A stretch of 64,000 nucleotides of DNA from an uncultured Alphaproteobacteria bacterium (GTDB taxonomy: Bacteria; Pseudomonadota; Alphaproteobacteria; RF32; CAG-239), in assembly GCA_944391505.1 (NCBI GenBank), contig CALXTV010000002.1, positions 62,001-126,000 of the forward strand. Direction: 5' to 3'. The position numbers and the translations under genes were made by a program. The notes beneath the pieces were generated by a model. The model searched no databases. It saw only the letters and a program-made list of their open reading frames with translations, and had not been told where the DNA came from. Below, in pieces: positions 6,098 through 61,231 of this stretch (positions are counted from its first letter, which is position 1; each line of letters starts with the position of its first letter).

Positions 6098-6121
6098 ACG
6101 CAACTCCTCAGGCGCAAAAAA

Positions 6122-6507
6122 GTTGAGGCAGCCTGTAAGCCGGGTTCTGTACGCCTTGCGGCGCGACAGCTATTCATCTTGGCCGGACATTGCTGTACGG
6201 CTCAACGCGACCTACCTCTGGAGCAGAGTGGAAACCCTCCGTATAACCGAAACAAAAAGTTCCGGCCCTCCTAACTTGGTCTTGCTTCAGACAGGGTTTA
6301 CCTTGCCGAAACCGTTGCCGGTTCCGCGGTGAGCTCTTACCTCGCCTTTTCAACCTTACTCCCTGAAAGAGAGCGGTATATTTCTGCGGCACTTTCCCTC
6401 GGATTTCTCCGGCCGGACGTTATCCGGTGTCTCGTTTCCTTGAAGCCCGGACTTTCCTCTTCCGCGGATTTTCCTTTCCGGAAAGCAGCTGTCCGGCTGC
6501 CTGCTGC
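6122..6507 (-). ncRNA. rnpB: RNase P RNA (bacterial type A)
   Basis: On the minus strand the region contains the universally conserved P4 segment GAGGAAAGTCCGGGCT and, near the 3' end, the matching ACAGAACCCGGCTTA. The outer P1 helix is visible as GGCAGCC (minus strand, 6501-6495) pairing with GGCTGCC (6133-6127). The length of about 386 nt fits type A RNase P RNA, the catalytic subunit that matures tRNA 5' ends. The ends are estimated from P1 and from the upstream promoter. Confidence 0.95.
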
Positions 6508-22106: not shown

Positions 22107-22134
22107 TTGCAAAATAGAAATCAGACTTTATAAT
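22107..22134 (+). promoter_or_regulatory. Promoter of RNA-HTH module 1
   Basis: TTGCAA (22107-22112), a 16-bp spacer and a perfect TATAAT (22129-22134). The same boxes and spacing precede module 2 on the minus strand at 61009-60982, where the first part of the spacer (AATAGAAATC) is also identical. Confidence 0.75.
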
Positions 22135-22139
22135 CTTTC

Positions 22140-22311
22140 TTGCTGTCAGCAATGGTTAGGCCGGCGGCGGAGCGTAGAAACTCCTTATAACGAAATATAA
22201 CCTCCTTTGTGGAGGATGACGCGAAATAAGCCGCTTTTGCGGACGAATAAGTGTGCTGTCGTTATACAGTTTCTAACTCCTCCGCTCTCTTTTGAGAGCG
22301 GTTTTGTTTTA
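22140..22311 (+). ncRNA. Conserved structured leader RNA, copy 1 (unrecognised class)
   Basis: A long stem is formed by GCGGAG (22167-22172) with CTCCGC (22280-22285), GAAACT (22177-22182) with AGTTTC (22268-22273), and TATAACGA (22186-22193) with TCGTTATA (22259-22266). It encloses two hairpins, CCTCC-TTTGT-GGAGG (22201-22215) and CCGC-TTTT-GCGG (22231-22242), followed by ACGAATAAG, which is identical in copy 2. The middle stem has a different sequence in copy 2 but pairs perfectly there too. A terminator-like hairpin CCGCTCTC-TTTT-GAGAGCGG (22282-22301) plus TTTTGTTTT shares bases with the outer stem, so only one can form at a time. The downstream gene is a small HTH protein. Confidence 0.75.
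22282..22310 (+). terminator. Terminator-like hairpin of RNA element 1
   Basis: An 8-bp stem with a TTTT loop and a T-rich tail lies between the RNA and the HTH gene. Its 5' arm overlaps the closing stem of the leader at 22282-22285. Confidence 0.7.
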
Positions 22312-22334
22312 ACAAAACATTGAAGGGGTTGAAC

Positions 22335-22622
22335 ATGATGAATCAGATAAAATACGTATCACAAGCAAAGCAAAAACAATCCGCCTTAAGGCGGACGCTG
22401 GGCGTCCAGTTGTTTTCCTGCCGGCACAAGCTGCGGCTGTCTTTGAAACACGTTCAGGATAAGACCGGCGTTCCGATACGGGTCATTGACCGATTGGAAA
22501 TCGGCAAAGGTGACATTCGCTGGGGTTATCTTCTGTTGCTGCTGAATTATTATGAACAGACGATTAATTTCGGCACCCTGCTTGAAGGCGAAAGCGATCC
22601 CGACCTCGAAGAAGACGCCTGA
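22335..22622 (+). CDS. Small HTH protein linked to structured RNA 1
   Basis: The start ATG at 22335 (followed by a second ATG) has AAGGGG 6 nt upstream, and the region from the terminator to the start is almost identical to module 2. The 95-residue product has a basic N-terminus and an XRE-like helix-turn-helix: LSLKHVQDKTGVP (KTGVP at 43-47), then RVIDRLEIGKGDI. An acidic tail follows (GESDPDLEEDA). It is homologous to the 79-residue protein at 60533-60772. It may bind DNA or its own leader RNA. Confidence 0.8.
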   Translation: MMNQIKYVSQAKQKQSALRRTLGVQLFSCRHKLRLSLKHVQDKTGVPIRVIDRLEIGKGDIRWGYLLLLLNYYEQTINFGTLLEGESDPDLEEDA

Positions 22623-30048: not shown

Positions 30049-30214
30049 GCATAGGAGGCGAGCTGTCCGGTGCGTAGTTTCCGCAGATCTTCCGAGCCAA
30101 CATTTTTATATAGGGAGCTGTCTCTGATTAAATCGTGGTTTAATTATATGGCGCCCACTTTGTGAGAAGCGGTTCGATAAGAATGTCCCATACGGCTGAG
30201 ACGGCCCCTCCGTT
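30049..30214 (+). ncRNA. ssrS: 6S RNA
   Basis: 6S RNA mimics an open promoter and holds the sigma-70 RNA polymerase. The segment follows zapA directly, the conserved genomic position. Its ends pair (GGAGG at 30054-30058 with CCTCC at 30207-30211), extended by interrupted pairing inside. A central asymmetric region and a T run (30213-30219) follow the expected layout. A TTGCAA box (30016-30021) and TGTAAT (30037-30042) upstream could serve as promoter. The call rests on position and layout, as a covariance model could not be run. Confidence 0.75.
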
Positions 30215-60532: not shown

Positions 60533-60772
60533 TTACTCTTCCAGGCTGACCCGGATTTTCTTTCCATAATAACCGCAGAGCCGGAAAAGCTTAAAAATAT
60601 CGGCGCAGTTTCCCCTCTCCAGACTATCGATTATCCAGCACGGCACGCCGGTTTTCTTTTCGACTCTTTTGATGCTTAAACGACGGCGCCGGCGCTCCTG
60701 CCAGAGAATTTGGCCGACATCTTTCAAAAACTCTTTTTTGATTTCTTTTTTGGACATTTGTTCCATCATCAT
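60533..60772 (-). CDS. Small HTH protein linked to structured RNA 2
   Basis: The ATG at 60772, first of three in-frame ATGs, matches the position of the module 1 start and has AAGGAG upstream. The 79-residue product has a basic helix and an XRE-like HTH: RRRRLSIKRVEKKTGVP (KTGVP at 40-44), then IIDSLERGNCADIF. It lacks the acidic tail of copy 1. The two proteins share L-S-x-K-x-V, K-T-G-V-P, I-D-x-L-E and a following DI, so they are homologues. Confidence 0.8.
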   Translation of the reverse strand: MMMEQMSKKEIKKEFLKDVGQILWQERRRRRLSIKRVEKKTGVPCWIIDSLERGNCADIFKLFRLCGYYGKKIRVSLEE

Positions 60773-60795: not shown

Positions 60796-60976
60796 TAAAA
60801 CAAAACCGCCCTTTCGGTCAGAAAAGGCGGAGGATGTTGAAAGCTGCAAATAGACAGTGTGCTTATTCGTCCGCAGAAAGCGGCTTATATCGCACCATCC
60901 TCCCTTGCAGGAGGTTATTTTTTCTATTTGAGGAGCTTTCATACTCCGCGGCCGGTCTAACCGTTTCCGACTGCAG
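60796..60976 (-). ncRNA. Conserved structured leader RNA, copy 2 (unrecognised class)
   Basis: The same stem as in copy 1 forms with different sequence. P1 pairs 60944-60949 with 60827-60832 (identical to copy 1). P2 is GAAAGCT/AGCTTTC (60934-60940 with 60839-60845), and P3 is CAAATAGA/TCTATTTG (60923-60930 with 60847-60854). P3 differs from copy 1 at most positions but still pairs perfectly. Inner hairpins are at 60899-60914 and 60871-60883, followed by the identical ACGAATAAG. The hairpin at 60806-60830 overlaps the P1 arm, as in copy 1. Confidence 0.75.
60806..60830 (-). terminator. Terminator-like hairpin of RNA element 2
   Basis: CCGCCTTTT, loop CTGACCG and AAAGGGCGG form a 9-pair stem (one U-G pair) followed by TTTTGTTTT on the minus strand, the same tail as copy 1. 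Confidence 0.68.
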
Positions 60977-60981
60977 AGATG

Positions 60982-61009
60982 ATTATAAAAGCAGATTTCT
61001 ATTTTGCAA
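60982..61009 (-). promoter_or_regulatory. Promoter of RNA-HTH module 2
   Basis: On the minus strand TTGCAA (61009-61004), a 16-bp spacer and TATAAT (60987-60982). The -35, spacer length and the spacer start AATAGAAATC are the same as in module 1. Confidence 0.75.
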
Positions 61010-61037
61010 CGGCTTTTTTATAAGGGGACGCCCTTGA

Positions 61038-61155
61038 GCGCAAGCTGTTGCCAGCTTGACCGCACCACCGGCTGCTTTGAGAATCTTTGTTGAAACGCGC
61101 AAGCTGTTGCCAGCTTGACCGCACCACCGGCTGCTTTGAGAACCTTTGTTGAAAC
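61038..61155. repeat. 59-bp tandem repeat, two copies
   Basis: Two units of 59 bp (61038-61096 and 61097-61155) differ at one base. Each contains AAGCTG-TTGC-CAGCTT, a perfect 6-bp hairpin (7 bp with flanking bases). The unit length is not a multiple of three, so it is not a coding repeat. It lies between the Sel1-gene 3' end and the module 2 promoter. No gene is seen in the rest of 61010-61231. Confidence 0.9.
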
Positions 61156-61231
61156 GCGTTGCTTCCTGCGTGCATATCGTGAGGCCGTGCCTTGTGTCTG
61201 TGGATATAGCAAGATATAAAAAAACAAAAAA

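Follow-up and report, generated by a model that had tools for sequence, protein, structure and literature searches.

A covarying leader RNA with alternative pairings in Alphaproteobacteria, related to sRNA-Xcc1 and a candidate transcription attenuator

The two RNA copies and their surroundings

The window is a stretch of 64,000 nucleotides from the genome of an uncultured Alphaproteobacteria bacterium (contig CALXTV010000002.1). It carries two copies of a structured RNA, copy 1 on the plus strand (approximately 170 nt, 22141-22310) and copy 2 on the minus strand (60797-60975), and both have the same order of parts: their own -35/-10 promoter, the RNA, an intrinsic terminator, a Shine-Dalgarno sequence (SD) and a gene start approximately 25 nt further on. 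The sigma-70-like promoter of copy 1, recognised by sequence and conserved among copies, lies at 22107-22134 (-35 TTGCAA, 22107-22112; 16-nt spacer; -10 TATAAT, 22129-22134), and its position predicts a transcription start at approximately 22141. The promoter of copy 2 (60982-61009) has the same boxes at 61009-61004 and 60987-60982. An earlier note on this DNA had placed the element of copy 1 at 22107-22334; the segment is present and extends from the -35 box to just 5' of the ATG, of which only the part from the predicted start to the terminator is the RNA proper.

The drawn fold of copy 1 comprises the P1 hairpin (22142-22168), P2 (22169-22280), in which GGAG..AGAAACT (22169-22182) pairs with AGTTTCTAACTCC (22268-22280), P3 (22186-22266), the P4 hairpin CCTCC..GGAGG (22201-22215), P5/P6 with its symmetric internal loop GAAATAAG / ACGAATAAG (22219-22254), and the terminator CCGCTCTC TTTT GAGAGCGG followed by TTTTGTTTT (22282-22310). 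An inverted repeat, TTTTGTT..AACAAAA, lies across the U-tract (22302-22318) and shows compensated changes, such as TTTCTT..AAGAAA in genus g16. The corresponding parts of copy 2 are P1 (60974-60948), P2 (60947-60934/60845-60832), P3 (60930-60923/60854-60847), P4 (60914-60899), P5/P6 (60895-60859) and the terminator (60830-60806). An upstream open reading frame starting at GGAGGATG was rejected, given that its reading frame differs between the copies.

Both copies precede an open reading frame for a small Xre/HipB-like helix-turn-helix (HTH) protein, of 95 aa behind copy 1 (22335-22622, plus strand, with the SD GAAGGGG at 22322-22328) and of 79 aa behind copy 2 (60533-60772, minus strand). Both proteins score below the Pfam cut-offs, and the AlphaFold model of the 79-aa protein, made without an alignment, has a pLDDT of 59. 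Among the downstream HTH proteins, 16 of 31 members were matched by couple_hipB (best 6.6e-07). Elsewhere in the window, an RNase P class A RNA (6120-6504, minus strand) and a 6S RNA (30057-30211, plus strand) reach the Rfam gathering score, and an intergenic repeat, CGCAAGCTGTTGCCAGCTTGACCGCACCACCGGCTGCTTTGAGAA, occurs in tandem at 61035-61160 and is partly present beside three RNA copies (L010, L011 and L019).

Homologues, covariation and alternative helices

The host genome (1.74 Mb) holds 15 copies of the RNA at 73-100% identity, and 2-10 copies were found by blastn in each of the same-genus genomes. A covariance model built from 35 copies (R1) had matches in 131 of 153 genomes and in 16 of the 17 genera of the order, with up to 27 copies in one genome (G077) and 59 in another (G157), further candidates being scored. 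A broader covariance model (R2) matched in 32/385 sampled genomes of the class and in 3/398 of the phylum. Many homologues were recovered by covariance-model search across order and class. Hosts identified by a pattern scan include Azospirillum sp. CAG:239 and uncultured alphaproteobacterial metagenome-assembled genomes, several of them from the ruminant gut. A phage or plasmid element was rejected, given that no match was obtained in a pattern scan of 2.9 million viral contigs or by blastn against phage and plasmid records.

The compensatory changes between the two window copies were confirmed. In the middle stem (P3), TATAACGA/TCGTTATA (22186-22193 / 22259-22266) aligns with CAAATAGA/TCTATTTG on the minus strand (60930-60923 / 60854-60847), and in a second stem GTAGAAACT/AGTTTCTA aligns with ATGAAAGCT/AGCTTTCA; the segment ACGAATAAG and the inner hairpins CCTCC..GGAGG and CCGC..GCGG are the same in both copies. 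The minimum free energies are -65.1 for copy 1 (z -5.2) and -67.7 for copy 2 (z -4.2), each against shuffled controls. The proposal of a selected, covarying structured RNA is borne out over many homologues. In the MAFFT alignment of 35 copies, 93.8% of the cells are paired (82.3% shuffled), 230 cells carry double changes (67 shuffled), and the covariation score is 0.409 against 0.182 shuffled and at most 0.125 in every slid control; among 80 distinct hits aligned to the model, 97.1% of the cells are paired (69.2% in the control) and two-sided changes occur in 45 of 49 pairs. Neither A2 nor the RF02221 test involved fitting to the model, unlike A5 and A7, and the shuffle and swap controls leave some relatedness among the copies in place.

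Each of P1, P2, P3, P4, P5, P6 and the terminator is supported by the covariation analysis. Double changes were observed in 5/8 pairs of P1, 7/8 of P3 and 4/4 of P5, the last being 100% paired; P2 has 98.8% of its cells paired, P4 is supported in the covariation alignments and the terminator in that of 35 copies. The conserved internal loop of P5/P6 has GANAUAAG opposite ACGAAUAAG, which we take to resemble two back-to-back UAA/GAN motifs, a likeness offered as a lead only.

The stems drawn in the earlier note thus covary, but at least one further pairing is supported beside them, as three more helices, H1, H7 and J, covary too. H1, a hairpin formed locally by the P2 5' arm (GGAG..CTCC, 22169-22184), is an alternative to outer P2; it shows covarying types and can form in 164/177 sequences, compared with 25% of shuffles. 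H7 (CTG[TCGTTATA]CAG, 22256-22269) has the P3 3' arm as its loop and is an alternative to P3, its CUG/CAG becoming CCG/CGG or CUA/UAG in relatives. Helix J (22211-22283), a candidate antiterminator, joins the P4 3' arm, GGAGGAT (22211-22217), to the edge of P2-3' and the terminator, CTCCTCC (22277-22283). It covaries across lineages, and its formation is incompatible with P4, outer P2 and the terminator base.

The J duplex has an energy of -11.4 kcal/mol in 140 copies, compared with -9.6 (sd 0.15) when partners are swapped, and of -17.7 compared with -9.9 for the control in 25 distant copies, where its arms include GGUUGGAGG/CCUCCAACC, GACUGGAAG/CUUCCAGUC and GGGCGGAU/AUCCGCC. In these 25 copies the P4 region, too, folds into a hairpin (-8.3 vs -4.6 shuffled), and hence the P4 5' arm, the P4 3' arm and the J 3' arm vary together, which is the signature of mutually exclusive helices. 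P4 and J, and likewise H7 and P3, are covarying exclusive pairs tied to the terminator. In copy 1 of the window, J overlaps the terminator by just 2 nt, and a pseudoknot in which J and inner P2/P3 form together is conceivable. The covariation therefore favours exclusivity of P4 with J and of P3 with H7 over a clean two-state switch.

Downstream genes and the link to RF02221

An SD and an ORF start lie within 60 nt downstream of 151 of 197 distinct model hits (median 26 nt), compared with 67/776 antisense windows, which places the RNA as a same-strand leader at a fixed distance from start codons; the copies examined have their own promoter and terminator. In the host genome and many genera the gene that is led encodes an Xre/HipB-like protein of 70-95 aa whose sequence varies greatly (mean column identity 28%), whereas the RNA core is constant. 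All 14 best-scoring HTH relatives of the host genome follow the RNA. At its fifteenth RNA (L010, C2:53387) the HTH ORF is cut by an internal deletion to MATQNNEIIKI.., and the RNA upstream is still present with mispaired P3 arms. The HTH relatives beyond those 14 have no model-level RNA upstream, bar one with a 20-bit leader at C1:273k. At this site (L204, C1:272900-274000) an HTH-like gene follows a structured, terminator-bearing leader of approximately 20 bits, possibly a far relative.

The small HTH gene behind the RNA, as described for the window in the earlier note, does not extend to all genera. In genome G157 the RNA leads genes for secreted BspA-type leucine-rich repeat (LRR) proteins, pilin-like proteins and regulators, and elsewhere for lipoproteins, an acyltransferase, a TM2 protein and an outer-membrane-type protein. 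An RNA specific to HTH genes is ruled out by this variety, which therefore indicates a cis leader. Several secreted LRR proteins of G157 (behind L235, L236, L242, L248, L249 and others) share a C-terminal tail, KRIYTIDEANxVAGKxNxFxIRYR, which may be a signal for sorting or secretion.

The earlier note recognised no known class, and in the comparison with Rfam the window copies indeed match no family at threshold. Nor does any Rfam family match the element in 20 relatives, and the riboswitch classes of Rfam are without a match at the gathering score both in the window and in the element of these relatives. On RF02221 (sRNA-Xcc1) the window copies score 22.2 bits, below the curated cut-off of 53. 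Relatives of the window RNA, however, score 56.2, 51.7 and 45.4 bits on this family, the cut-off being reached only by distant ones such as L274, so that the window RNA is a remote and longer relative of a family already in Rfam, and the reading as a wholly new class without Rfam relatives was rejected. The chain of homologues is continuous: R1 finds the G440 copies (50.8 bits), which account for the score of 45.4, and R2 finds L274 (78.8 bits), which accounts for that of 56.2. The window RNA is thus without formal membership of RF02221, yet tied to it by intermediates and a common core fold. In the 87-nt RF02221 consensus, J is the closing helix and encloses both P5/P6 and a second hairpin, H7; the window copies can adopt all three, and these covary in relatives. 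A second, RF02221-like leader subtype was observed in the host genome upstream of a lipoprotein gene (C11:21731-21815; L338 841-1033).

RF02221 occurs in 37/289 genomes of the class and 54/349 of the phylum. Forty RF02221-only hits were found with a model beginning at J, and the 140 nt on their 5' side contain complementary P2/P3 arms (duplex -34.1 kcal/mol, compared with -25.4 for swapped and -24.1 for shuffled upstream DNA). An SD and ORF lie within 150 nt downstream of 32/40 RF02221 hits, compared with 36/156 antisense windows, and the ten proteins tested behind such hits include SymE, Bro-N, KilA-N, P22_AR_N and Rha. These findings suggest that sRNA-Xcc1 is only the 3' half of such a switch-like leader. 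Several gammaproteobacterial-type hits have no obvious intrinsic terminator before the gene, and in L301, L304, L325 and L295 a short copy of the P2 5' arm (e.g., CUGAUAA, CUCACAA) lies downstream of the RF02221 core, near the SD. This copy weakly suggests translational control in terminator-less members; as a general translational switch it was rejected, since it is striking in L301, L304 and L325 but overall yields just -12.3 kcal/mol compared with -11.3 swapped.

A candidate attenuator and its comparison with known systems

The RNA is probably a 5' leader that acts in cis as a riboswitch-like transcription attenuator, with sRNA-Xcc1 as its 3' half (J, P5/P6 and H7). Transcription would begin just 5' of P1. 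In one state, P1, P2, P3 and P4 would form and the terminator would halt transcription ahead of the gene; in the other, the P4 3' arm would pair with the edge of P2-3' and the terminator as helix J, accompanied by H1 and H7, which would block P4, outer P2 and the terminator base and allow the gene to be transcribed. The balance may be set by a signal, most likely a small ligand, read at the P5/P6 loop (GANAUAAG / ACGAAUAAG) or by the P2/P3/J fold. What the analysis shows is the fold, the covariation of both helix sets, the placement in cis with a promoter and a terminator, the broad phylogenetic range and the connection to RF02221; we infer that both states occur in cells and that J would lower termination. 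Against attenuation count the gene-less tandem copies with their own promoters, the several RF02221 hits that lack an obvious terminator, the 2-nt overlap of J, its possible pseudoknot with inner P2/P3 and the discrete 88-nt form of sRNA-Xcc1.

Some of these points would suit a stand-alone trans-acting sRNA, as published for sRNA-Xcc1, with the adjoining gene expressed by occasional read-through. Each copy has its own promoter and terminator, tandem RNA arrays have no gene between their members (L058, L069), stems are intact in copies without a gene (L059, L135), and sRNA-Xcc1 was first reported as a discrete 88-nt RNA on Northern blots with ends mapped by RACE (PMC2996969). We consider this reading unlikely, however, since the great majority of copies lie at a tight distance from the gene they lead, the 14 best HTH relatives of the host genome all have the RNA, the sole copy with an internally deleted HTH ORF has mispaired P3 arms, and the variable parts are base-paired, leaving no constant single-stranded seed.

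Autogenous control, in which the small HTH protein would bind its own leader, or else the promoter or the inverted repeat at the U-tract, and the fold would serve feedback, draws on the one-to-one pairing of RNA and HTH gene in the host genome, extra conservation near the -35 box and the covarying inverted repeat of the U-tract. It is made improbable by LRR, pilin-like, lipoprotein, SymE, Bro-N and KilA-N genes that are led without such an HTH protein there, and by the diversity of the HTH proteins beside a constant RNA core. The high copy numbers and tandem duplications, together with the integron association of sRNA-Xcc1 in Xanthomonas (PMC12444791), would also be expected if RNA and gene were a small mobile cassette whose fold is needed for movement, for example as an integron-like recombination site. 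This is very improbable in view of the fixed order of transcription signals and SD around the RNA, flanks that share no common terminal repeat in the own-genome alignment, and the negative searches of viral contigs and phage and plasmid records.

Beyond the attenuator itself, we tentatively propose, with a little less than even confidence, a new Proteobacteria-wide riboswitch class, present in dozens of copies in single genomes of some gut Alphaproteobacteria, of which sRNA-Xcc1 would be the 3' half, and through which a single signal would control surface proteins, small regulators and toxin- or phage-type genes. A survey of candidate structured RNAs in human microbiomes found HTH-XRE genes among their commonest neighbours (PMC8040213); its main text names no alphaproteobacterial member, and gut-bacterial members of the present family may be among its candidates. 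New here are the 5' half that RF02221 lacks, an alternative pairing, a role in cis and very high numbers of copies. If the proposal is true, a puzzling sRNA family becomes a cis-acting switch and RF02221 gains its 5' half, some gut bacteria read one signal through as many as 59 copies of a single RNA, and hundreds of leaders become usable for a ligand search, with the sRNA and switch hypotheses predicting opposite outcomes.

Compared with RF02221, the window RNA has P1, P2, P3, P4 and the terminator, which are absent from the Rfam model, and it is read as a cis leader whereas the family is annotated as an sRNA gene. sRNA-Xcc1 is described as a discrete trans-acting transcript of approximately 88 nt under HrpG/HrpX, and Chen et al. 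(2011, RNA Biol 8:947; cited in PMC12444791 and PMC12189769) call it a trans-acting sRNA in their title. In integron cassettes of Xanthomonas it is found upstream of symE (PMC12444791), and Xylella has five copies in tandem, approximately 385 nt apart (PMC12189769), an arrangement that resembles the RNA-gene units seen here; these published facts fit a cis leader of which the 3' half was the first to be described. Unlike in riboswitch tandems, each tandem unit here has its own promoter, and no Rfam riboswitch class is matched. With riboswitches and attenuators the window RNA has in common its position as a 5' leader, mutually exclusive covarying helices, a terminator, several families of downstream genes and, sometimes, a tandem arrangement.
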